Assembly (NCBI RefSeq): GCF_001040845.1
Contig: NZ_CP011941.1
Span: forward strand, 1,956,828-2,020,827
DNA length: 64,000 bases
Direction of reading: 5' to 3'
DNA from: Synechococcus sp. WH 8020
GTDB lineage: Bacteria; Cyanobacteriota; Cyanobacteriia; PCC-6307; Cyanobiaceae
The translations under genes were made by a program, and so were the position numbers. The notes below the pieces were generated by a model, which was not told the DNA's origin, made no database searches, and saw only the letters and a list, made by a program, of their open reading frames with translations. The first letter of the stretch is position 1. Each line of letters opens with the position of its first letter. This document shows, piece after piece, positions 172-12,233 of this stretch.

Positions 172-1407
172 TTAAGTGGTGTAATCGGCGTTAATGCGCA
201 CGTACTGATCGGAAAGATCGCATCCCCAGGCGATTCCCTCACCGGCACCATCACCAAGAGACAGGCGAATCTGAACCGTGTCATCCACGAGATAACCACC
301 ACAAGCGCGTTCACTGAGATACGCCGAAGCTGCAGCCCGATCGAATGGCAACGGCTGTCCCTCTGACATCAGCTGATGGGGGCCAATCCAAAGAGCCAGC
401 GCATCGGCAGAAAATGCCACACCGGCACGACCAGCGGCCGCCACGATGCGTCCCCAATTGGGATCCCTACCATGAACCGCCGTTTTAACCAACGACGACC
501 CACAAATCGTGCGCGCGATTGTTCGAGCCTCAGCCTCTGAATCGGTGCCCCCCACCTGCACCTCCATCAGGCAGGTGGCCCCCTCACCATCCCGAGCAAT
601 CGAACGAGCCAGATGCTGGGCGACCAACGTCACCCCCTCCTCCAACACTCCGAGCTGGTCCGTTGGCAGAGCATCTCCTGCCGCAAACGCCAAGAAGGTG
701 TCATTGGTGCTGGTGTCGCCATCCACGGTGATGGAATTAAACGAACGATCCACGGCCCGGCGCACCATGGCTTGCCACAGGTCACAGGGCACAGCGACAT
801 CACAGGTGAGATAGCCAAGCATCGTGGCCATGTTTGGGTGAATCATCCCGGACCCTTTCGCCATCCCTCCGATCCGCACCCTGTGCCCACCGAGCTCAGC
901 CTCAAACGCAACCTGCTTCTCCACCAGATCCGTCGTCAGGATGGCCTGAGCAGCTGCCGCACCACCATCCGGGGATAAAGCGCTCACCAAAGGATCCACA
1001 GCGGCAAGAAGGGGATCCATCGCGATCGGTACACCGATCACCCCGGTGGAGCAAATCAAGACTTGGTCCTGGGAGCAGCCCAAACGATCAGCAACTGCTT
1101 GGGTGATACGGAGGCTGTCGACCAGACCCCGATCGCCCGTACAAGCGTTGGCCTGCCCGGAATTGGTCACCACAGCACGAACGCGACCAGAAGCCACCTG
1201 CAGACGATCCGCACAAAGATCCACGCAGGCAGCGCGGACCACAGATGTTGTGAAGGTGCCAGCACAGACCGCATCGTCTGATGCCAGTAACAGGGAGAGG
1301 TCTGCTTTTCTGGATGGCTTGAGACCCGCGCTTAAGCCCGCCGCCTTGAAGCCAGTGGGAGCAGTGATTCCTCCAGAAATTGGAGACCAGATCACAGATT
1401 GCGTCAT
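172..1407 (-). CDS. argJ: Arginine biosynthesis bifunctional protein ArgJ (glutamate N-acetyltransferase / amino-acid N-acetyltransferase)
   Basis: The enzyme transfers the acetyl group of N-acetylornithine to glutamate and can also acetylate glutamate from acetyl-CoA, feeding the cyclic arginine pathway in the cytoplasm. At 411 residues it is full length. The self-cleavage and nucleophile motif is visible as [14 protein letters not shown], with cleavage expected between Ala194 and Thr195, and the C-terminus contains the usual DPNWGRI segment. The ATG start lies 65 bases from the divergent coaE start, so the two genes share a short promoter interval. A decayed copy of the 5' end of this gene is present near 2906-2945. 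The remaining 171 bases to the left edge hold no recognisable gene. Assignment is firm. Confidence 0.96.
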
Positions 1408-1472: not shown

Positions 1473-2081
1473 TTGAGTGGAGACAACCGCTGGCAAGGAC
1501 GGCAACGGCGCATCGGCCTCACCGGTGGGATCGCTAGTGGCAAAAGCAGCGTCGGCCATTTTCTTATTCAGCAGGGCATCCAGGTTCTGGATGCGGATCT
1601 CTACGCCCGTGAAGCCTTGGCGCCAGGTAGTCCTACTTCCAGAGCAGTGCTGCAGCGCTACGGCGTAAAAGTACAGAGCGAGCTCGGCGAAGGCCTAGAC
1701 CGAGCGGCACTCGGATCCATCGTGTTCAGCGATCCCCAAGAACGGACCTGGCTAGAAAGTCAAGTGCACCCGTTCGTGCGACAACGTTTCGATCGGGAGC
1801 TTCAGAAGCAGGCTGAAGAGTCTCTGGTGGCTTTAATGATCCCGTTGCTATTTGAAGCCAAGCTAGAGAACCTTTGTTCAGAGATATGGGTGATGTACTG
1901 CACACCAATGCAGCAAAAACAACGACTAATGCTGCGTAATCAGCTCACTGTGGAGGAAGCAGAACAACGCATCAGAGCCCAATGGCCTATTGATCACAAA
2001 CGTGAACTTGCCGACCATGTCATTAACAACGGCGGCGAACCATGGAGCTGGAGATCACAGGTCAATGACCTCCTGAAATAA
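1473..2081 (+). CDS. coaE: Dephospho-CoA kinase
   Basis: This enzyme performs the last step of coenzyme A synthesis, phosphorylating the 3'-hydroxyl of dephospho-CoA with ATP. The 202-residue product has the P-loop [13 protein letters not shown] at residues 15-27, the DAD motif that follows it, and the REALAPG segment typical of the CoA-binding part. The reading frame opens at a TTG, and I see no in-frame ATG before the P-loop, so TTG is the likely start. The gene is divergent from argJ. A diverged, truncated second copy of its first third lies downstream at about 2945-3107. Confidence 0.95.
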
Positions 2082-2305
2082 ACTCTTCCGCTTCCTTAAT
2101 CAGCACAACTCAATCAAAACCAGAGTCAAGATGGGGGCAAATCATGTTCCCAATCCAAAGCAAGAAGTTCCACAGAGAAAAGTCAAAACACCGACAATTC
2201 ACGACCCTCATGCTTTAGGCCTCAGTCGGACCTTGTCACATCACATGTCTTGACCAATCCACAAAAACCTCCCTAAGTTTCAACGTCTCCAAGCAACAAT
2301 TGACC

Positions 2306-2893
2306 ATGAAGCGGTTGGGTTTCTCACTGGGATGGTCAGCATTGCTGGTACTCACGACGCAATCTGCACAGAGCCAGCCAATTGAATATCAATGCTTCGA
2401 AAGGAATACACGACGCCCTGTAGCAGCAAGTCTTGTCGATCTCAGCACTCCTGAGGTGAGTTGCGAGATCACCACCCTGAAAACCCCAGAGCAAACAAAC
2501 GAGGACAAACCGAATCTGGTTGCTGCGGATTCGGATAGCAGCGACGGCCCCAGCCCTTACGCCGAGATCACACCCGATCCAAAGTCCGTGAAAAGGTTTG
2601 TCCGCGACAACCCCCTCGCGGCAAGGCGTGCCCTCAATCTGGCTAGAGGGGCAGCAATCCGGCTAAACGGCGGCCTCAGGGTCTATCGACCGGGAAGCTG
2701 CATGTACACCAGTGCGAGCAACAATCCGTGCCTCATTCATGCGGGTCCAGAAGGCTTGGAATTCAGCATCCCGGGAGGTGCAACCGGCTGGGAGCAGGCC
2801 GGAGAACCCCCAACCGTGACAACGCGGATCCTGGTGGCAGCCGATGGCCGCGCATTACTGCAGAGGGAACAATCGGGAGCCGTCAGCCTTTGA
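2306..2893 (+). CDS. Secreted protein of unknown function with an N-terminal cysteine motif
   Basis: I do not recognise a named family. The ATG at 2306 gives 195 residues with a clear signal peptide (basic MKR start, hydrophobic core, likely cleavage near AQSQP). The mature protein begins with a short two-cysteine motif, YQCFERNTRRPVAASLVD followed about ten residues later by VSCE. The same pattern opens the mature secreted protein at 8872. The rest is a proline- and serine-rich middle and a C-terminal region with GGLRVYRPGSC and a Gly-rich segment, possibly beta structure. A TTG two codons upstream could also serve as start. The gene lies between coaE and a decayed coaE copy, which suggests it arrived with a foreign insertion. 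Function is unknown. Confidence 0.7.
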   Translation: MKRLGFSLGWSALLVLTTQSAQSQPIEYQCFERNTRRPVAASLVDLSTPEVSCEITTLKTPEQTNEDKPNLVAADSDSSDGPSPYAEITPDPKSVKRFVRDNPLAARRALNLARGAAIRLNGGLRVYRPGSCMYTSASNNPCLIHAGPEGLEFSIPGGATGWEQAGEPPTVTTRILVAADGRALLQREQSGAVSL

Positions 2894-2905
2894 GCTTCAA
2901 GCTCA

Positions 2906-3107
2906 GTGAAGGCACCGGCACAGACAGCATGCGGTGATCCCTCCATCCACGGGAATCCCGATGGAGGAGAGCCAGCTGGCAACGGCAAAAGCAGCGTGGG
3001 GCATCGGCTTAAAGGGCAGGAAATTCCCGTTCCGGATGCTGACCACTGCGAGCAGGAGGCTTTGGCACCTGGCACCGCAGCTAGCCGAGAAGTTCTGAAC
3101 GGCTACC
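2906..3107 (+). pseudogene. Decayed second copy of the argJ/coaE divergent junction
   Basis: The segment from about 2975 translates, on the plus strand, to a truncated relative of the CoaE N-terminus: the sequences GKSSVGH, DAD, EALAPG, a following SR-VL and a final Y line up in register with residues of the intact CoaE at 1473-2081. Just upstream, bases 2906-2929 match 20 of 24 bases of plus-strand 1250-1273, inside the 5' part of argJ, and on the minus strand they encode AVCAGAF against AVCAGTF of ArgJ. A second match to the argJ start region (gcggtgatccctcca against gcagtgattcctcca) follows at about 2931. The two-thirds of coaE downstream and most of argJ are absent, and the P-loop glycines before GKSS are lost, so it cannot encode a working kinase. 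Many differences from the intact copy are synonymous, which suggests an older divergence or a foreign origin rather than a recent duplication. Confidence 0.75.
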
Positions 3108-3151
3108 TAACCACTCATTCCCAGTGGAGCAATGCGTGCCAAACAAGCAAA

Positions 3152-3841
3152 TCAACCCACCAGCAGCCCTCGTTTGATCAAAGGCTGAGCATCAACGATG
3201 CGCAGACGTCCGTTCTCTTCAGTCACCGTGCCACGACTACGCAGTTTGCTCAAGGTCCGTGAGGCCGTCTCCCTGGCAAGCCCTGCCAGCAAAGCCACTT
3301 CCCTCTGCGCCAGTGGAGGAATTTCTGCCAAGGGATCGACACCTCCAGAATTCCGACGCGCCAGATAAGCCAAAGCATCGAGCAACCTGGTAGTTGCATC
3401 GGCAGTTTGCACAGCGAAACGCTGATTGAGGTCTCGTAATCGCCCAGCCTCCAATCGTGCCAGGGCCAAAGCAAATAAGGCCTCCTCGGTGAGCAAAGAG
3501 GTGAATGAAGCGGCACGCATTTTGATCAACTCCAGTGACGTAAGGGCAACGACGTCAGCGGAACGAGAATGACCACCAAGAGAAGCCAGCTCTCCAAACA
3601 CATCACCAGGCCCAAGGAGAGACATGATCACCTCCTCTCCATCAGCGGTGTATGTGCGCACCTTGGCTAATCCATCCCGAATCAAAAACAAAGATTCTCC
3701 CCAATCCTGCTCCATCACAATCACTTGATCCACCTGATGACGACTCGTCCGGTGGCGATCAAGCAGCAACTCTCTCTGACGTTCCGACAAGACCTCGAAC
3801 AAAGGTATTGCCCCAAGGTCATCAGGCGTGAAAACACCCAT
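3152..3841 (-). CDS. Crp/Fnr-family transcriptional regulator
   Basis: The 229-residue protein has an N-terminal cyclic-nucleotide-binding beta-barrel (about residues 10-125) and a C-terminal winged helix-turn-helix (about 170-225, with LAGLARETASRTLSKL as the recognition region). The phosphate-binding cassette reads GELASLGGHSRSADV. It keeps the Glu and Arg-Ser that contact cAMP in E. coli CRP, so cAMP binding is plausible. The Fnr-type N-terminal cysteine cluster is missing, which argues against an iron-sulfur oxygen sensor. It is divergent from a second cyclic-nucleotide-binding protein and a cyclase, suggesting a local signalling unit. NtcA is an alternative family, but the retained cAMP cassette makes that less likely. 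Targets are not shown by the sequence apart from a CRP-like site at 8769. Confidence 0.85.
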   Translation of the reverse strand: MGVFTPDDLGAIPLFEVLSERQRELLLDRHRTSRHQVDQVIVMEQDWGESLFLIRDGLAKVRTYTADGEEVIMSLLGPGDVFGELASLGGHSRSADVVALTSLELIKMRAASFTSLLTEEALFALALARLEAGRLRDLNQRFAVQTADATTRLLDALAYLARRNSGGVDPLAEIPPLAQREVALLAGLARETASRTLSKLRSRGTVTEENGRLRIVDAQPLIKRGLLVG

Positions 3842-4035
3842 GGATCAAAACTCCGCCTCTCGTCAATAGTGGCGTGGAACAAGGTGAACGTCTCCATGAC
3901 CACCACCATTGGTTTGATCCATTCATCAAGACGCAAGTTCCGTCATCGACAACTTCAAATCGTGACACTCATGAAAGTCGACCGATCCCTCCCCATGGAT
4001 CAGAGCAGCATGGTTTGAGTGGCTTCTGGCGGCGC

Positions 4036-4611
4036 ATGGAAAGCGAGAACCGTCAGCTCACGCATCTAAGAGAACGACTGACGATGCTGCTCAGCACTCA
4101 TCTACCAAACCTTCCTCACCAAGTACTGACAGCAGCTAGCGGAGATGTCCTGATTACGCAAAACGCCGCTGCCAAGCGCGTACTGCTGGTTAAGTCTGGT
4201 GAACTTCGGATCGAACGATTGGAAGAAGGTGGAACGCCGAAGGTTATTGCCGTTGTAGGAGCGAATGAGCTGGTCGGCGAAATGGCACTGATCGGGGAGC
4301 CACGCCACAGCGCCACAGTGACTGTTCATCACGGCCCCGCCGAGATCCTTTCCATACGATCAAACGATTTGCTGCAAGCCGCTCTTTATGACAGCGATCT
4401 TGTGATGGAGCTTTTGGCTCTTTGCAGTACCCGTTGCCGTAAAACCAATCACCATCTTGCACTGCTTTTAGAAGGCCTGGACGCCTTAAGCCGGCGCGAT
4501 CATCAAGCACTAGAACTTTGCTGCAACCGTCTCGGCTCTCGAGCGGAATCCGGGCTGGCCCATGCCGCCGAGTTGCTGAGACAGCTTGAAAATCATCTAG
4601 GGCCTCCGTAA
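4036..4611 (+). CDS. Cyclic-nucleotide-binding-domain protein without a DNA-binding domain
   Basis: From the ATG at 4036 the product is 191 residues. The frame is open back to 3874, but that stretch looks low-complexity and His-rich and is probably untranslated. Residues about 35-140 form a single CNMP-binding domain, with GELRIERLEEGG and the phosphate-binding cassette GEMALIGEPRHSATV. The C-terminal 50 residues are helical and Leu-rich, with no helix-turn-helix, so this is a cyclic-nucleotide reader that probably acts by protein contact. Its stop codon shares one base with the start of the cyclase gene (TAATG at 4609-4613), indicating translational coupling. The shared transcript suggests it senses the product of that cyclase or controls it. 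That role is inference. Confidence 0.8.
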   Translation: MESENRQLTHLRERLTMLLSTHLPNLPHQVLTAASGDVLITQNAAAKRVLLVKSGELRIERLEEGGTPKVIAVVGANELVGEMALIGEPRHSATVTVHHGPAEILSIRSNDLLQAALYDSDLVMELLALCSTRCRKTNHHLALLLEGLDALSRRDHQALELCCNRLGSRAESGLAHAAELLRQLENHLGPP

Positions 4612-6509
4612 TGGCGCAACATCCTTGGCAATGGATTTCTCGCCATTCGAGCGTCCTCGTTTTCGCAGTCGCAGTTGCGGTTGTGGGTGGGATGACACCT
4701 GCATTGACCAACCGATTGGAGCTGCAGTTCTCGGGTTGGGTGCAAGAAACTCGAGGGAAGCAACCAGTGCCAAAGGGCATCGTGATCGTTGCTATTGATG
4801 ACTTCAGCCTGCAACAAGCTGCAAATACGGATCTAAGCGCCGATCCTCTTCTTACGAGCCTGAAGCAATGGCCCTGGCCCCGCAGTGTGCATGCAATTGT
4901 GCTGGAGCGCTTAATCGAGGCAGGCGCAACAACCGTTGGATTTGATCTTGTTTTCGAATCCCCCAGTAGTCACGGAATCAAAGACGACAAAATCTTTGCT
5001 GAAGCGCTCGATCGTCATCGCGAGCGAGTGGTTCTAGGGGTTCAAGTGCTCGCCAGCAGGGGACCAGTGGCTGGTTTAAGCCTTATGGACATTGCCCCAT
5101 CACTACTGCACTCAATACAACCTCCAGCGCGAGGATTGCTAAACGGTGGACCCGATCTGGATGGCGTGATTAGGAAGCGGCCAGGTGACACATCAAAAAA
5201 CTTGCAACTCAAGCTAGGCCCTGCAGTTCCGAACTCACTCGCGGTTGCAATGCTTGAACTGAGTGATCAAAGCGCTGACTTGACGTCACGCACGAGCATT
5301 CACCTCCTCCCTTATGGACCACCGCGCACGATCCCGACCATTTCAATCTGGGAATTACTTGAATCCAATGCTTATGAATCACTGAAATCATCTGGGTTGG
5401 TGAAGAACGCCCAGGTTTTAGTTGGACCCACAGCAGCAGTCTTTCAGGACCTTCATCCGGCGGTGTTTTCTGGTGCCGAAGGAATGCCTGGAGTTGAAAT
5501 TCATGCCACCGAACTCGCCAACCGCAGCGAGGGTCGCTCCTTGATTTGGATCGCATCACCCCCTGGCTGGAATCTTGTCATGGGGGTTGCAGTCCTGATT
5601 GCAGGACTGAGCGTGGCTCGCTGGGACCAACCGTTTCCCCGATTTGGCGTTCTTGCTGCACTGTCTATCGCCCTTGTCATTAGCAGTGGTGCTCTGATCG
5701 CCTGGGCGGGAATTCACCTGCCCATTTTGGGACTAGCCATCAGTCTTGCCGCGACCGGCATGGTCAGCAGCGGAGAAGCAACGGTCCGTCTCCAATGGCA
5801 GCGTCTTCGCCTTCGCCAAACACTCGGGAGATATCTGTCTCCCGCTGTCGCCGCGGAAGTCGCCAACCAACCTCAAGAAGCTGACGGACTACTCGGTGGT
5901 CGACTCATGAATGTCGTCATCATGATGAGTGACATCCGTGGATTTACGGCTTTCACTCAAGAGATGACAAGCCGTGGAGAGGTTCAGACTCTCGTTCAAC
6001 GTTTGAACCGCTATTTCACTGCGGTCGTCGACGTCATTCATGCACATGAAGGAACCGTCGACAAATTTATTGGGGATGCAGTTTTAGCCGTCTTTGGAGC
6101 ACCAATTGAGAAGAACAGCAAAGACAATGTGCTGGACGCACTTCAAACAGCCATCGAGGTTCAACAATGCCTCTTCACACTGAACCAAACCTGGGAAGAA
6201 GAAGGGCAAACTTCCTGGGAGCAAGTGATAGTTCTCAGTTACGGCTGGGTATTGAGCGGCAATATCGGATCATCCAGCCGAATGGATTACACCGTCATTG
6301 GGGATGCTGTTAATACAGCAAGCCGCCTCGAGGCCATTGCAAAACAATGCAATGAGCCAATTGTCATAAGCGAGGATGTTGCCGAGCAATTACCAACCGA
6401 GATACCACTTAAAGATCTGGGAGAATTCGACATTCGCGGACAAGGCCCTCAACATGCTTTTGCCCTAAAAACCGACGAAATAAACAATGATTTAGAAACA
6501 CGGCGGTAA
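4611..6509 (+). CDS. CHASE2-domain membrane-bound class III adenylate/guanylate cyclase
   Basis: The 632-residue protein follows the CHASE2 cyclase layout: one N-terminal membrane segment (about residues 13-32), an extracytoplasmic CHASE2 sensor (about 40-310), three closely spaced membrane helices (about 315-395) and a C-terminal class III cyclase domain (about 405-620). The metal-binding aspartates are seen in MMSDIRGFTAF and KFIGDAVLAVFG, and the substrate and transition-state residues in DYTVIGDAVNTASRLE. The pattern with Lys in KFIGD and Thr in YTVIG fits adenylate cyclases of class IIIb. The gene is coupled by TAATG to the upstream cyclic-nucleotide-binding protein and is followed by a FecR-domain protein, a neighbour often seen beside CHASE2 proteins. 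The CHASE2 ligand is unknown. Confidence 0.92.
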   Translation: MAQHPWQWISRHSSVLVFAVAVAVVGGMTPALTNRLELQFSGWVQETRGKQPVPKGIVIVAIDDFSLQQAANTDLSADPLLTSLKQWPWPRSVHAIVLERLIEAGATTVGFDLVFESPSSHGIKDDKIFAEALDRHRERVVLGVQVLASRGPVAGLSLMDIAPSLLHSIQPPARGLLNGGPDLDGVIRKRPGDTSKNLQLKLGPAVPNSLAVAMLELSDQSADLTSRTSIHLLPYGPPRTIPTISIWELLESNAYESLKSSGLVKNAQVLVGPTAAVFQDLHPAVFSGAEGMPGVEIHATELANRSEGRSLIWIASPPGWNLVMGVAVLIAGLSVARWDQPFPRFGVLAALSIALVISSGALIAWAGIHLPILGLAISLAATGMVSSGEATVRLQWQRLRLRQTLGRYLSPAVAAEVANQPQEADGLLGGRLMNVVIMMSDIRGFTAFTQEMTSRGEVQTLVQRLNRYFTAVVDVIHAHEGTVDKFIGDAVLAVFGAPIEKNSKDNVLDALQTAIEVQQCLFTLNQTWEEEGQTSWEQVIVLSYGWVLSGNIGSSSRMDYTVIGDAVNTASRLEAIAKQCNEPIVISEDVAEQLPTEIPLKDLGEFDIRGQGPQHAFALKTDEINNDLETRR

Positions 6510-6548
6510 AGAAAAATCAAAATAAAATGCAAGAAAAAGAGGATATAT

Positions 6549-6581
6549 CATGAGAGACCCATGAGAGACTCATGAAAAGTG
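6549..6581 (+). repeat. Short 11-bp tandem repeat
   Basis: Two consecutive copies of CATGAGAGAC(C/T) at 6549-6559 and 6560-6570 are followed by a decayed third unit beginning CATGA at 6571. The repeat lies in the 146-base gap between the cyclase and the FecR-domain gene. It might bind a regulator or be a replication-slippage product. Confidence 0.6.
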
Positions 6582-6655
6582 CGTGAGCAAACTAAGCATT
6601 AAATGAGCAGATTTAAAGAAAATTGGTAACGTCTTATTCCTCAGATCGGCCCCAT

Positions 6656-8425
6656 ATGGATCTGCTGAAGACAGCACTGATCTTCGCGTTTGTAACGAGT
6701 GGATTCGGCACAGAGACCAAGGGAGCATCATTCAACCACGCCACCGTTCGACGCATCATCGATGGACGCGACGTATTCATCGACCGAAGACCAGCAGCGG
6801 TCAACCAAAGTGCAGATCGCGGACAAGAAATCAGCACTGGTAGAAGTCGTGCAGAGCTTTTGTTTGACCGGCGCGCATTGGGTTTTCTAGGCACGAATAG
6901 TTTGATCAAACTAGGGGAAGACTGCTTTCGCTTGAATCGCGGTCAAGTGCTAATCAACGGACCCCAGAACAGTTGCCTGGGAACCAAAGTGCTGGGAATC
7001 CGAGGAACAACCTATGTGCTGAGCGTCCGCGAGAACAACAATTACGAACTTGCAGTACTCAGCGGGGAAGCAATTATCGGAGACGAAAGTGAATCCAATG
7101 AGCTGACGAAACCACAAAATGCAGCGGATATCCTCACGCTTTATCCCACTATCAATCCCGAGTTTGGGATCGGAACCAGCGCTTGGGGCAGCAACACGTC
7201 GGGAGAGCCTCTTGGTGAAGCAGCCGGAGTAATTCTTGCTAACACATCATTTTTTCTACCACTCAGGCAAACCAACGGAAGCAATCTCCTCTACACCTAC
7301 ACAACAGCCAACGGCAATTTCGATGGTATTTGGGGAGCAAGCAGCGAAATTGGATACAAGTGGTTTAATCCTAGTAATCAAAGCATTAATTCCTTTCTCG
7401 TCGGCTACGACGGATGGAGTGACGGAAATTGCTTCCACTCTCAGGTTGCTATTGGCGGACTGTGGCAAAAGGATCGCTGGAAACTGGGTGCATCAGGAGG
7501 AATTCCCATGGACGGATGTGCCAACAATCTGGGTTACGCCATCGGGGAACTAGGAGTTCCAGTTGTTGATCTCGGAGAGCAATCCATCACCCTTTCCCTA
7601 GCTCCTTATCTAATCCATGGAATTGGCGATTCTTACGGTGGAGGTCGAATCGGACTCAATGTACCGATTAGCAATCAGCTAACACTCTCAACCTATGGCC
7701 AATACGACAACCTATTGAATACTGTTATCGGCGGACAAATTAGTTATCGATTTGCAACTAACGGATCATTGGTTAACGATCCCAACATCAATCAGCAATC
7801 TCCATCGTCACCTGCTGTCCTCCAAGCACAACGCATCAAACGCAACTACACCACGCTCGCAAATAGTAACTTGAACGCCAATCGCTTGATCGCCGAAACA
7901 CCATCAACTATCCAATCCTCCAACGTTACAGACAAACGACGTGGGCAAAGTCAGGATTCCGTATACCTGCAGGCTGGAGACATCGCCACGTTTGACAGTG
8001 ATGGAAATTTACTCAGCCGTCGACAAATGTCTAAGCAACAATTTTCAGATGTAGTGATAGAGACCATGCGTGGGCAAAATCTTCTTCCCGAAAGCAACAT
8101 CATCAAGCTGACTTATCAAAGACTCTACGGCGAACCAAATCGCCAACTTCACACAATCCTCGGATCCAATTGGCGCTTTGCAGCGCGGACTCCTTACCCA
8201 CGACTGCGTGGAGCGAACAACCTCGTGGTTCCAAACAACAAAATCGCAAAGGAAGCAGAGAGGATCCGCAATAATGAAAATGAGAGCGAAGACAGCAACA
8301 ACAACGAGAGCGAAGACAACAATCAGAACAACAATGAGCGCATACCCAACAATTCCAGCGAGACGCCAACCCCTGGCATTCAAAACATTCCAGGAGCGGG
8401 GAGCACTGGCACTCCAGGTCAATAA
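6656..8425 (+). CDS. Secreted FecR-domain protein with a beta-barrel-like segment and Asn/Glu-rich tail
   Basis: I place the start at the ATG at 6656 because it opens a good signal peptide (MDLLKTALIFAFVTSGFG). A TTG eleven codons upstream is possible. The 589-residue product has a FecR-type domain at about residues 30-145, including the LGIRGTTYVLSV and LSGEAIIG strands. Residues about 205-370 form a run of alternating hydrophobic and polar stretches rich in Gly, Tyr and Trp, ending in GGQISYRF, which resembles an outer-membrane barrel or autotransporter-like beta domain. A linker of about 170 residues follows, then a low-complexity Asn/Glu/Ser tail ending in PGAGSTGTPGQ. FecR domains usually sit in the periplasm and pass signals; the proximity of the CHASE2 cyclase suggests joint envelope sensing. 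The barrel call is my reading of the pattern only. Confidence 0.72.
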   Translation: MDLLKTALIFAFVTSGFGTETKGASFNHATVRRIIDGRDVFIDRRPAAVNQSADRGQEISTGRSRAELLFDRRALGFLGTNSLIKLGEDCFRLNRGQVLINGPQNSCLGTKVLGIRGTTYVLSVRENNNYELAVLSGEAIIGDESESNELTKPQNAADILTLYPTINPEFGIGTSAWGSNTSGEPLGEAAGVILANTSFFLPLRQTNGSNLLYTYTTANGNFDGIWGASSEIGYKWFNPSNQSINSFLVGYDGWSDGNCFHSQVAIGGLWQKDRWKLGASGGIPMDGCANNLGYAIGELGVPVVDLGEQSITLSLAPYLIHGIGDSYGGGRIGLNVPISNQLTLSTYGQYDNLLNTVIGGQISYRFATNGSLVNDPNINQQSPSSPAVLQAQRIKRNYTTLANSNLNANRLIAETPSTIQSSNVTDKRRGQSQDSVYLQAGDIATFDSDGNLLSRRQMSKQQFSDVVIETMRGQNLLPESNIIKLTYQRLYGEPNRQLHTILGSNWRFAARTPYPRLRGANNLVVPNNKIAKEAERIRNNENESEDSNNNESEDNNQNNNERIPNNSSETPTPGIQNIPGAGSTGTPGQ

Positions 8426-8871
8426 AGCTCTTCTAGGCACCAAAAGCCATCAATCCTGACCATCGATGCGCAGACCAATGAAATCTGCTGACAACAATAA
8501 ACTCATCTCTCAACAGATCTTGATTGGCGCCATGCCAATCACAATTAAACCAAACAAAACCAACCCAAAGAAACTCAAAAAACTCAACAAAATAAGCCAA
8601 TCAATTCAACAAGCAAAAGAATTTGGCACCGATCAAACATCATCCAGATACAACCACGCTGATCAATCACGAGGCTTTCATTTTTACGATCACAACCCAC
8701 GTCGCAAACCAACCAACGACAACCTCTAGGAGCACATGATTCAAGATGATCTATCGCTCCCAGGAAGCCGTGATCAAGATCACAGCGTATAGGGATTTAG
8801 ATCATCATCTGAGCGGAGTATCAAAGACATTATGAGTTCATCCTCAAAGGGTCAAAAGCAACTCCCTAGCC
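8426..8871 (+). other. 446-base intergenic region with regulatory content
   Basis: This stretch separates the FecR-domain gene from the next secreted-protein gene. An open frame from 8466 to 8729 would encode 87 residues rich in Lys, Asn and Gln with no signal peptide, membrane segment or recognisable domain. I consider it doubtful. The right part contains a near-consensus CRP palindrome (8769-8784) and a possible -10 hexamer CATTAT at 8828-8833. No terminator with a T-tract was seen. Confidence 0.4.
8769..8784 (+). promoter_or_regulatory. Candidate CRP/cAMP-receptor binding site
   Basis: The sequence CGTGATCAAGATCACA matches 14 of 16 core positions of the E. coli/SyCRP1-type consensus TGTGATCTAGATCACA and is itself a nearly perfect palindrome. 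Its centre (about 8776.5) is roughly 62 bases upstream of a start that would follow the possible -10 element CATTAT at 8828-8833, which is the class I activation spacing. The downstream gene is the acidic secreted protein at 8872. A CRP-type regulator and a cyclase lie within 6 kb. The promoter itself is inferred. Confidence 0.6.
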
Positions 8872-9339
8872 ATGTCTAACTCTCCTTCATTAATGTCCAA
8901 GCTGGTCTTTGGGTGCACGACTGTAATCGCAATCGGCGCTTCAAGCTCAGAAGCCATGACCAAAGCTTATGACTGCTTCAACCGAACAACTGGCCAATTA
9001 ACTGCTCAAAGCGCAGTGGACATCAGCAGTGTCACATTGCAATGCGTCAACAATCTCAATTCAGAAGATCTTTATGCCGAAAGCTCTTCACCTGAAAGCG
9101 AAGAAGCAGAGACAGAGTATTCCACTATTGACGAAGAAGACAACGATTCAGAATATAGATACGAAGAAGATGAAGAACAATACGAGGACGAATCGAGCGC
9201 GTATCACGACTATAGCGACGACGATTACGAGAGTGATGAATCAACCGGACAGCAGCTCAGAAAAGCCGCCGGGAGACACATTGGAGAACTATTCGGAAAC
9301 ATGCTGAACGACATCATGGGTCAATCAAATCAGTTTTGA
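8872..9339 (+). CDS. Acidic secreted protein sharing the N-terminal cysteine motif of the 2306 gene
   Basis: The 155-residue product has a signal peptide ending near SSSEA. The mature protein begins YDCFNRTTGQLTAQSAVDIS with a second Cys about eight residues later, the same pattern as the secreted protein at 2306. Residues about 62-125 are dominated by Asp, Glu, Tyr and Ser with almost no basic residues; an acidic tract of this kind could bind divalent cations, but this is not shown. The C-terminal 30 residues form a separate conserved-looking helix (GRHIGELFGNMLNDIMGQ). An in-frame ATG at 8893 is an alternative start. The upstream CRP-like site suggests cAMP control. The function is unknown. 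Confidence 0.72.
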   Translation: MSNSPSLMSKLVFGCTTVIAIGASSSEAMTKAYDCFNRTTGQLTAQSAVDISSVTLQCVNNLNSEDLYAESSSPESEEAETEYSTIDEEDNDSEYRYEEDEEQYEDESSAYHDYSDDDYESDESTGQQLRKAAGRHIGELFGNMLNDIMGQSNQF

Positions 9340-9549
9340 CTCGTCCCAGGTTTGGCGAGCATCATTCAACCCCTATCACCCTTGACTCTGAAGTCAATTT
9401 TGAATGCATTCATTCAATATCAATCAAGACACTAAAACGCCCCTCACTTTTCGGCATTTAAACTGGAAAATCATGCTGCCAGATATCACGTTTTTGAGGT
9501 GAACAGACAACTTACACAGGCAAAACAAACACGTCAGCGCTTCTGTCCA

Positions 9550-11034
9550 TCATCCCTTCAGTTTCTTACTGAGAATCTGGTTGGCAAGTTTTGGGTCAGC
9601 CTTGCCACCGGTCTTTTTCATCAGCTGTCCAACAAAAAAGCCCTGCAGTTTGGTCTTGCCGCCACGGAAAGCTTCCACTTCATCAGGATGAGCGGAGAGC
9701 AACTCTTCAACAATGGTGGTAATCGCTGAAGGATCGCTAATCATGCCGAGCCCTCTCTCATCAACGATCGCCTTAGGTGAACCACCCTTTTCGAGCAATT
9801 CAGGAAGAAGTTCCTTGGCAATCTTGCCGCTGATTTTGCCGCCATCGATCAACGTCACCATTTCCGCCAGCTGATCAGGGCGGAAGGGGAGTTCTGTGTA
9901 ACTCAGCCGGTGGCTGTTGACGTGTGCAGCAATATCACCAGTGATCCAGTTGGCGGCCAATTTGGGATCAGCATCAGCCGCGACGACAGCCTCGAAATAG
10001 TCCGCCATCGGACGCTCGTCTGTAAGGACACGAGCGTCGTACTGGGACAGACCTAAGTCATCGGCATAGCGATGACGTTTGGCCGCTGGCAGCTCTGGCA
10101 GTTCACTCCTCCAGGCTTCGCGCTGATCAACGCTCACCTCAATCGGGCCAAGATCCGGATCAGGGAAATAACGGTAATCGCTTGCTCCCTCCTTGCTTCG
10201 CATGCTCTTGGTGAGCTGTTTGCTCTCGTCCCAGAGGCGCGTTTCCTGAATGATCGGCTCACCGGATTCGTAGGCCTTGATCTGACGCTGGATCTCGTAC
10301 TCGCATGCCTTCTGGATGGCAGAAAAGGAGTTCATGTTCTTGATTTCCACCTTCGTACCGAAGGGTGCATCGGGGCCCCGTCGCACAGAGATATTGACGT
10401 CGCAACGCAAGGAGCCCTCCTGCATATTTCCATCACTCACGCCCAGATAGCGCATGATCCGGCGGATCTCAGATGCGTATTCCGCCGCTTCCCTGCCGTT
10501 GCGTAAATCGGGCTTGCTCACAATCTCGGCGAGGGCCACACCAGCACGGTTGTAGTCCACTAAGGAATGCGTTGAGCCCGCCAGGCGATCACTTCCGGCG
10601 TGCACCAACTTGCCGGCATCCTCCTCCATATGCAGGCGCTCGATTCCGATCTTTTTCAGATAGGTGTCTTTGCCTTTCTCGGCAACTTCCACCTCGATCC
10701 AACCCTCTTCTGCAATCGGCTCATCGAATTGAGTGATTTGATAGTTCTTAGGAAGGTCTGGATAGAAATATTGCTTGCGATCAAATTTGCAGTGCTCAGC
10801 AATGTTCAGGTTCAGTCCCATCGAAGCCTTAACGGCATACTCGAGCACTTTTCGATTCAAAACTGGAAGCGTCCCAGGGAGGCCACACACCACTGGATCG
10901 ATATGGGTGTTGGGGTCATCCCCGTAAGCAGTGGATGCGGACGTGAAAATCTTGCTGTTGGTCCCCAACTGCACATGGGTCTCAAGACCGATCACGGCTT
11001 CCCAAGCCAGTTCCGTTGCTGCAGGTGCCGCCAT
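9550..11034 (-). CDS. gatB: Aspartyl/glutamyl-tRNA amidotransferase subunit B
   Basis: GatB is the kinase and tRNA-binding subunit of GatCAB, which converts Glu-tRNA(Gln) and Asp-tRNA(Asn) to the correct amides. The 494-residue length is normal. Family landmarks include WEAVIGLETHVQL near the N-terminus, the CGLPGTLPVLN segment, CDVNISVR, and the C-terminal GatB/YqeY tail domain that contacts the tRNA elbow. It starts with ATG and is divergent from thiO with about 100 bases between. The neighbouring gat subunits are not in this window. Confidence 0.97.
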   Translation of the reverse strand: MAAPAATELAWEAVIGLETHVQLGTNSKIFTSASTAYGDDPNTHIDPVVCGLPGTLPVLNRKVLEYAVKASMGLNLNIAEHCKFDRKQYFYPDLPKNYQITQFDEPIAEEGWIEVEVAEKGKDTYLKKIGIERLHMEEDAGKLVHAGSDRLAGSTHSLVDYNRAGVALAEIVSKPDLRNGREAAEYASEIRRIMRYLGVSDGNMQEGSLRCDVNISVRRGPDAPFGTKVEIKNMNSFSAIQKACEYEIQRQIKAYESGEPIIQETRLWDESKQLTKSMRSKEGASDYRYFPDPDLGPIEVSVDQREAWRSELPELPAAKRHRYADDLGLSQYDARVLTDERPMADYFEAVVAADADPKLAANWITGDIAAHVNSHRLSYTELPFRPDQLAEMVTLIDGGKISGKIAKELLPELLEKGGSPKAIVDERGLGMISDPSAITTIVEELLSAHPDEVEAFRGGKTKLQGFFVGQLMKKTGGKADPKLANQILSKKLKG

Positions 11035-11132
11035 CAGCTTTGAGCGTTATCTAACCAACCCAATCCTATGGAAGAGACGGAGCCGCCATCCTGTTGAGAG
11101 AACTTCGGCGTGATGAAGCTGCTGAATCAACC

Positions 11133-12233
11133 ATGAGCAATGAGCAAGTGCTGATCCTTGGCGGCGGACTAATGGGCCTAGCAATCGCCCATCATCTGGC
11201 CAGGCGCGGCTGTTCCGTGACCGTGCTCAGCCGGCGGCGGAACGAAGCCGCCGGGTTTGTGGCAGCAGGAATGCTGGCCCCCCACGCCGAAGGCTTGACT
11301 GGCGATCTGTTGCGACTAGGCCAACTGAGCTTGGAGCGGATTCCCCGCTGGGTGGCACAGATTGAAGCCGACAGTGGGCTGCCCTGCGGCCTGCGCGCCA
11401 CAGGAATTGTTGTGCCCTTCAAGGATGCAAAGGAGCGAGATCGTTATGCAACCGCCGCCTTTGGCGAAGCCCTGAACAGACAACGCCTCGAGCAGCTGCT
11501 CCCTGGCATCGCACCGGACTGGAAGGCCGGTCTGCTGTTTGACCAAGACGGGCAAATAGACAATCGCCGCCAACTCATGCGCGCCTTAGAGAGTGCTTGC
11601 GTCGACCGGGGTGTGAACTTTCAGGAAGGGGTGGAAGTTCTCAACCTCCTGAAACATGACGGTCGCCTTTATGGCGTTCGAACCCGTGATTCAGAAGGCC
11701 TGCTTTCGACATTGACATGTACGAAGGCCGTTCTCTGCAGCGGAGCCTGGAGTGCCCAGCTTCTTCCTGAATTACCGGTGTTTCCAGTGAAGGGGCAGAT
11801 GGTGTCACTCCAAACCCCAAGAGGCGCCCTCAGACATGTGATCTTTGGACCGGGCACCTATTTAGTCCCTAGGGAGGATGGTCTGGTGGTGGTAGGAGCC
11901 ACCTCAGAACCAGAGGCTGGCTTCAATGAAGGATTGACGCCCCAAGGACAAAAAAGTCTCAACCAAGGGATCGCTGCGCTGCTTCCCGATGCTGTGAACT
12001 GGCCACCGATGGAGCGTTGGTGGGGATTTCGTCCCTGCACTCCGGACGAGGGCCCACTGCTGGGGCAAGGCCCAATCCCTGGGCTTTGGCTGGCCTGCGG
12101 CCATCACCGCAATGGTGTCTTGCTCGCAGCAATTACAACTGAATTATTGGCTGACGCCATCACTCATCAAGCCACAAGCTCTGAAGCCACAAGGATGCTT
12201 CATGCGTTCCGCTGGGACCGTTTTGCTGACTGA
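11133..12233 (+). CDS. thiO: FAD-dependent glycine oxidase ThiO
   Basis: This protein belongs to the D-amino-acid-oxidase family. ThiO oxidises glycine to iminoglycine for the thiazole ring of thiamine. From ATG 11133 it has 366 residues, with the FAD-binding dinucleotide motif LILGGGLMGLAIAHHLA at the N-terminus, FVAAGMLAPHAEG (a ThiO-type loop) and the C-terminal WGFRPCTPDEGPLLG and HHRNGVLLAA segments. The frame is open upstream to a TTG at 11094, but the ATG puts the dinucleotide fold at the usual place. In many cyanobacteria ThiO is fused to ThiG; here it is a single protein. Other members of the family cannot be wholly excluded. Confidence 0.85.
   Translation: MSNEQVLILGGGLMGLAIAHHLARRGCSVTVLSRRRNEAAGFVAAGMLAPHAEGLTGDLLRLGQLSLERIPRWVAQIEADSGLPCGLRATGIVVPFKDAKERDRYATAAFGEALNRQRLEQLLPGIAPDWKAGLLFDQDGQIDNRRQLMRALESACVDRGVNFQEGVEVLNLLKHDGRLYGVRTRDSEGLLSTLTCTKAVLCSGAWSAQLLPELPVFPVKGQMVSLQTPRGALRHVIFGPGTYLVPREDGLVVVGATSEPEAGFNEGLTPQGQKSLNQGIAALLPDAVNWPPMERWWGFRPCTPDEGPLLGQGPIPGLWLACGHHRNGVLLAAITTELLADAITHQATSSEATRMLHAFRWDRFAD

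Follow-up and report, generated by a model that had tools for sequence, protein, structure and literature searches.

A decayed second argJ/coaE border and a hybrid gatB suggest one-sided import of a cyclase block in Synechococcus sp. WH 8020

Results

In Synechococcus sp. WH 8020 a decayed second copy of the argJ/coaE border lies between coaE and gatB, at one edge of a block of accessory genes whose other edge falls inside a hybrid gatB. We consider it probable that a fragment with the order argJ'-coaE'-crp-cNMP protein-cyclase-fecR-orf155-gatB entered the chromosome through a crossover in gatB and a non-homologous join at argJ', which is the pattern termed homology-facilitated illegitimate recombination (HFIR). 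The window, by which we mean the whole stretch of 64,000 nucleotides that was analyzed, spans positions 1956828-2020827 of contig C1 in genome G000, which is a single contig that is 99.99% complete with 0.03% contamination. Its gene order is argJ(-), coaE(+), orf197(+), the fossil, crp(-), a gene for a cNMP-binding protein(+), a CHASE2 cyclase gene(+), a FecR-like gene(+), orf155(+), gatB(-), thiO, ndk, speA and a Coq4-family gene; the names gatB, thiO, ndk, speA and FecR-like were assigned by eye. In the four closest relatives (G020, G013, G023 and G030, of the host clade) orf197 runs into the end of gatB, with neither the block nor the fossil in between. The orf197 product had no match in Pfam, PHROGs or NCBIfam.

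Table 1. Position and basis of the features at the coaE-gatB interval of the window
Feature	Position	Strand	Basis
argJ, native copy, host clade	172..1407	-	Pfam ArgJ; 90-92% aa to G020, G013, G023, G030
coaE, native copy, host clade	1473..2081	+	Pfam CoaE; 86% aa to G020, 76-78% to G013, G023, G030
orf197, native	2300..2893	+	between coaE and gatB also in the four closest relatives
Putative native gatB 3' end remnant	2883..2905	-	reverse complement of 2883-2906 reads LSLKLKG-stop
Fossil argJ', around codons 46-53 (AVCAGAF)	2906..2930	-	profile and pairwise alignment; 21/24 nt to AG-673-A03
Fossil argJ' start and its upstream sequence	2931..2988	-	profile match 2931-2972; 45/58 nt to AG-673-A03
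Fossil coaE', codons 23-63, without stop codon, remainder deleted	2981..3106	+	61.0 bits, E 2e-20
Crp-type regulator, cargo	3152..3841	-	Pfam cNMP_binding, HTH_Crp_2
Cyclic-nucleotide-binding protein, cargo	3874..4611	+	Pfam cNMP_binding
CHASE2 adenylate/guanylate cyclase, cargo	4611..6509	+	Pfam CHASE2, Guanylate_cyc; tree
FecR-like secreted protein, cargo	6623..8425	+	named by eye; 57-64% aa to post-cyclase proteins elsewhere
orf155, cargo	8872..9339	+	homologues within coaE-gatB intervals of G028, G025, G018
gatB 3' part, foreign type	9550..10080	-	83.6-84.2% to G016, G022, G024
gatB 5' part, host-clade type	10081..11034	-	nt 1-950 92.6% to G020

A decayed second argJ/coaE junction

When a DNA profile built from 27 argJ-coaE regions was run against the top strand of window positions 2201-12000, it matched 2906-3105 in three collinear pieces of the argJ/coaE junction, at 2906-2929 (E 0.004), 2931-2972 (E 3e-4) and 2981-3105 (E 2e-20), the last with a score of 61.0 bits, whereas the best of 1000 dinucleotide shuffles of 2894-3151 reached 5.2 bits. 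A direct alignment of the local region with the decayed one paired argJ 1250-1275 with 2906-2931 and coaE 1539-1628 with 2984-3073, the coaE stretch at 70% identity, and it bears out the claim of the first-pass annotation that a second junction is retained. The motifs GKSSVGH, DAD and EALAPG, which had been read as common to both copies, are in register within CoaE residues 23-63. The retained part amounts to 41 of 202 codons, however, and is thus nearer a fifth of coaE than the third that had been estimated. The middle of the junction is deleted as described, though by two gaps, of 87 and 89 nt relative to AG-673-A03, rather than by a single one; five bases (GGCAA) are common to both neighbouring fossil blocks, as in a deletion between short repeats. 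Between 3106 and crp, profile search and comparison by eye revealed neither a continuation of coaE' nor a remnant of speA.

Over the 41 codons the fossil and the local coaE have the same residue at 25, and 13 of these 25 use a different codon, in agreement with the many synonymous differences noted earlier. First, second and third codon positions contribute 8, 13 and 20 base differences, respectively, between the two copies. Third positions account for 20 of the 41 differences from the local copy (p 0.03) and for 25 of the 42 from G002 (p 0.0004), a pile-up which suggests that most of the divergence arose while the fossil coaE' was a working gene, as the first-pass annotation had proposed. Residues L29 and A35 (numbering of alignment A1), which by eye are invariant in 19 CoaE proteins, are altered in the fossil.

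Affinities of the fossil

We compared the fossil with 110 loci, 30 of them fetched from the genus and the other 80 named. AG-673-A03 (G002), a single-cell genome, was the only genome with two collinear fossil blocks at E 0.01, one with 45/58 nt at the argJ start and upstream and the other with 49/64 nt in coaE; a third block in argJ (21/24 nt) was collinear and, taken alone, not significant (E 0.28). The next best other genome matched 39/58 nt of the argJ-start block. Over the 41 coaE codons the fossil has 26 residues in common with each of G002, G013 and G030, and 25 with the local copy and with G023. Nucleotide identity over the coaE part is 69% to G030, 68% to G013, 67% to the local copy and G023, and 66% to G002, such that two host-clade strains (G030 and G013) are nearest by raw nucleotides. 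The local copy is the closest match neither in blocks nor in nucleotides.

A tree combining the argJ start (the first 318 argJ columns) with coaE placed the fossil inside a group of 12 rows from which the host clade is absent (95/97). G007 and G019 were omitted from this alignment, and G002 as well from a second version of it, because their argJ and coaE affinities differ. Approximately unbiased (AU) tests of a grouping of the fossil with the local copy gave p 0.19 (coaE), 0.032 (argJ), 0.040 (both), 0.11 (both without G002) and 0.078 (fossil columns only); for the fossil with the host clade, the same data sets in the same order gave p 0.31, 0.051 (G007 and G019 added), 0.084, 0.18 and 0.080. 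The AU values against the local copy (p 0.03 to 0.19) and the nucleotide proximity of G030 and G013 are the weak points of a foreign origin. Taken alone, the fossil favours, without proving, such an origin, and the AU results are only borderline evidence against a local duplication. 

A single clade of the fossil, G002 and the WH7803-type strains was rejected in the argJ tree (p 0.005), because the argJ of G002 groups with that of G001. In G007 (L120 2342-4318) an argJ of host-clade type (89% to the window) stands beside a coaE of another type (49%), so that the border between the two genes there looks recombined itself.

A hybrid gatB and the left joint

The gatB gene of the window is open and of full length, and it is a hybrid, its distal two thirds being of host-clade type and its block-proximal 0.5 kb not. 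Over nucleotides 1000-1482, the part adjoining the block, identity is 75.5-77.8% with the four host-clade strains and 83.6-84.2% with G016, G022 and G024; for the 3' part a host-clade grouping was rejected (AU p 2.5e-6) and G000 joined G016, G022 and G024 (99/97). In the 5' part G000 paired with G020 (94/80), and the same AU test gave only p 0.052, as G007 too is placed with those strains in this part. A maximum chi-squared scan placed the break at window positions 10,069-10,092, and in three comparisons none of 1000 permutations matched it; in the negative controls, three clade-mates, 143, 828 and 190 of 1000 permutations did so, indicating no gatB break. The gatB of G018, considered as a second clear hybrid, gave no clear pattern.

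At the other edge of the block, a LSLKLKG-stop reading overlaps the end of orf197, which is the place expected for a gatB tail, and argJ' starts directly after it. With a matrix built from 24 gatB tails, 2883-2906 scored second in the window at 10.6 bits, compared with 34.1 for gatB itself and 8.0 for the next site. The evidence for a native gatB tail is moderate because the stretch is short (about 23 nt). By eye the left joint has at most one or two shared bases and no clear microhomology. Microhomology at the illegitimate joint is frequent in HFIR.

The cargo block and its distribution

The segment 3106-9549 has a GC content of 0.50, compared with 0.57 for argJ-coaE-orf197. No recombinase was found among the block proteins in Pfam, PHROGs or NCBIfam, in which the FecR-like protein had no match at all, and the window holds no tRNA or tmRNA gene. 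In a cyclase tree of seven of the nine genomes with a cyclase (G007, which is cut, and G009 were omitted), the window sequence formed a group with those of G001, G011, G004 and G025, and G026 and the host-clade strain G020 fell outside it (100/100). The crp tree agreed weakly with this grouping (75/87), and the FecR-like tree was without resolution.

The cyclase is present at 58% identity or more in 9 of the 31 genomes. It adjoins speA, on the side away from gatB, in seven of the eight other genomes and lies between a Coq4-family gene and alaS in the eighth (G009); only in the window is it found between coaE and gatB, and here speA is followed directly by the Coq4-family gene. The cassette that stands beside speA or alaS elsewhere is thus in a second core-gene interval. 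Between G020 and G026 the 3' part of speA is unusually similar (89-91%, against about 84% between G020 and other host-clade strains), a hint that the cassette may have travelled with its neighbour's end there too.

The gene order of the supposed donor was absent from the 24 genus intervals seen whole (of 26, those of G012 and G019 being cut by contig ends) and, among the 80 named loci, from the 63 in which coaE and gatB both occur. In a Cyanobium locus (L190 8111-9539) coaE is immediately followed by a convergent crp homologue (52%), the only such case and the adjacency that would be expected of the donor; argJ is 7.7 kb away. The coaE-gatB intervals of G016, G024, G022, G001 and G011 hold a different pair of FecR-like protein and CHASE2 cyclase, the latter 33-35% identical to the window cyclase (L115 4371-6873, L117 12439-14969, L121, L123 and L124).

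How the block may have arrived

The ancestor would have had the order argJ-coaE-orf197-gatB, like the four closest relatives. A donor fragment from another Synechococcus lineage, running argJ' (from about codon 53)-coaE'-crp-cNMP protein-CHASE2 cyclase-fecR-orf155-gatB, would have aligned with the chromosomal gatB and recombined there by a crossover around gatB nt 945-965. Its opposite end, within argJ', would have attached to the native gatB a few codons short of the 3' end of that gene, at a site of little or no homology. The result would be cargo added beside orf197 and a replaced last half kilobase of gatB, with a redundant argJ'/coaE' that was left over and then decayed by deletion. The fossil, the hybrid gatB, the grouping of the cyclase apart from G020 and the short native gatB tail are direct observations. 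From these we infer a single event, a linear donor molecule that arrived by transformation or transduction, and decay after arrival. Since genes for ComEC and DprA are present in the genome, DNA uptake is possible, and transduction is an equally open route.

The first-pass annotation had suggested that the block arrived by recombination with donor DNA that included an argJ/coaE border of its own; the homologous end in gatB, the retained gatB tail and the remnants in other genomes were no part of its argument. This proposal gains support from the best multi-block match to AG-673-A03, the foreign end of gatB, the cyclase grouping apart from G020, the empty junction in four relatives and the third-position excess. 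One joint lies in homologous sequence, at the break in the hybrid gatB (AU p 2.5e-6 for the 3' part), and the other, from the gatB tail into argJ', is without extensive homology in a comparison of modern rather than ancestral sequences, as HFIR would leave them. Double homologous recombination would have homologous joints at both ends, and one was found on the gatB side only; neither a recombinase gene nor a tRNA attachment site, as in a mobile element or island, was present.

The donor pieces point to related but non-identical lineages, the fossil to G002 and the gatB 3' end to G016, G022 and G024. Such close but differing affinities are also what would be seen after several imports, or if the fossil had already decayed in the donor, and a circular donor integrating through a single crossover in gatB would likewise leave a duplicate of the gatB 3' end, for which the 170-nt gatB tail in the interval of G018 offers a comparison. 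More steps are needed for this, and a circle would at first leave about 0.5 kb of gatB tail on the left where only about 23 nt are present; we regard a multi-step or circular origin as rather unlikely. A local tandem duplication of argJ-coaE, with later decay of the second copy, would fit the same order and orientation 1.4 kb away, the 67% nucleotide identity and 25 of 41 residues common to both copies, and AU tests in which rejection is confined to argJ and the combined data (p 0.032 and 0.040; otherwise 0.078 to 0.19). The trees, the block matches (AG-673-A03 being the best over several blocks) and the third-position excess nevertheless disfavour such a duplication, and as it would leave the hybrid gatB and the cargo without explanation, we judge its probability to be very low. 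An assembly chimera or strain contamination deserves mention because Dore et al. 2020 omitted the WH8020 assembly for poor quality (PMC7522525); yet a contaminant's border copy would be intact and this one is decayed, gatB is open and of full length, and the single contig has the completeness and contamination values given above, so that this explanation is slightly less credible still. Least probable of all is a mobile element that carried the block with its own recombinase and picked up a border piece, since for all the compactness of the block and its different place in other genomes, Pfam, PHROGs and NCBIfam revealed no recombinase, the window has no tRNA or tmRNA gene, and one edge is a crossover inside gatB.

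Relation to known systems

The probable import through gatB with a non-homologous join at argJ' has its closest parallel in the HFIR proposed for the T6SS immunity arrays of Vibrio cholerae, where gene arrays are shifted (PMC5361080). In both, foreign DNA is anchored by homology at one end and attached at the other without extensive homology, and older genes remain beside the new. The window differs from the V. cholerae arrays in that its retained scars derive from core genes that have decayed, and in that the position of each joint can be read in a natural genome. The same source describes HFIR as orders of magnitude rarer than ordinary recombination. The mechanism is already known and the locus is an unusually readable natural case of it, in which both joints of one import seem to be preserved.

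Recombination of core genes has been described together with hot spots (PMC5635113). As in double homologous recombination at flanking core genes, core genes flank a variable interval here and gatB has recombined; but that model needs homology at both flanks, whereas the window block has one homologous end, so alleles would be stacked rather than swapped. CRP/cyclase islands, among them the Syn_GI122 island module of marine Synechococcus, are treated in PMC7522525, and the CRP-type regulator beside a cyclase in the cargo fits the description of that module. Transformation also leaves an extra copy of resident genes in the merodiploids of Streptococcus pneumoniae (PMC3784515), which are duplications between repeats of one genome, whereas the extra copy in the window is of foreign type. 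Routes of transfer in Prochlorococcus are the subject of PMC7852597, beside which PMC2441476 may be cited. We found no openly licensed paper joining argJ, coaE and gatB with Synechococcus, and the titles and abstract beginnings of openly licensed papers on marine Synechococcus and illegitimate recombination mention no such scars.

Similar remnants in other genomes

A protein search of 31 whole genus genomes revealed second, decayed or partial pieces of coaE in G000, G016 and G024, of gatB in G016, G018 and G030, and of speA in G026 and G030, and none of argJ. Remnants were thus present in 6 of the 31 genomes, or in 7 when DNA profiles on fetched loci were added, which contributed gatB pieces in G020 and G024. 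The control genes ligA (matched in 29 of 31 genomes) and mnmG (30 of 31) had no such pieces by protein search, a comparison in which the controls were searched with proteins only and the seven border loci were inspected more closely than any control. Second matches in long open frames, where those of the controls sit, were excluded as fossils; we take them to be TrmFO-like (mnmG), LysA-like (speA) and BRCT-like (ligA). Also excluded were a second gatB match in G003 adjacent to the first and pieces at contig ends (gatB in G019, mnmG in G015).

Because remnants occur in 6 of 31 genomes (7 with the DNA profiles on fetched loci) against none for the two control genes, we tentatively suggest that in the argJ-coaE-gatB-thiO-ndk-speA-alaS core region of marine Synechococcus foreign island alleles may have been stacked repeatedly by one-sided recombination, and not only swapped, with decayed border genes as the record of each event. 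If this is true, border fossils would tell how islands enter genomes without mobile elements, which bears on the open question of how islands are filled and reshuffled in picocyanobacteria that have no obvious ones. A simple screen suggests itself, for decayed second copies of island-flanking core genes.

Some of the pieces (G016, G024 and G030) lie away from the interval. In G016 (L114 3636-7270) and G024 (L210 and L211), partial second coaE and gatB pieces surround orf155- and orf197-like genes at another chromosomal place; in L114 a gene with DUF389 and one for a photosynthetic reaction centre come next. G030 (L233 3660-6998; C1:972001-984000) has an ectopic patchwork of decayed alaS, gatB and speA pieces, every one derived from the core region next to the islands of the window. 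In G026 (L232 3281-3419) a piece of the speA 3' tail lies between FecR-like and Coq4-family genes, on the far side of that genome's own crp-cyclase-fecR block. The island beyond speA in G020 (L208 1533-6532) contains direct repeats, 300-nt reference copies that are 99-100% alike and spaced 2231 and 989 bp apart, with gatB pieces between them at 3373-3723. Short matches to the argJ 3' end and the 3' part of thiO were also seen away from the main genes, at L171 5733-5795 and L117 6447-6535.
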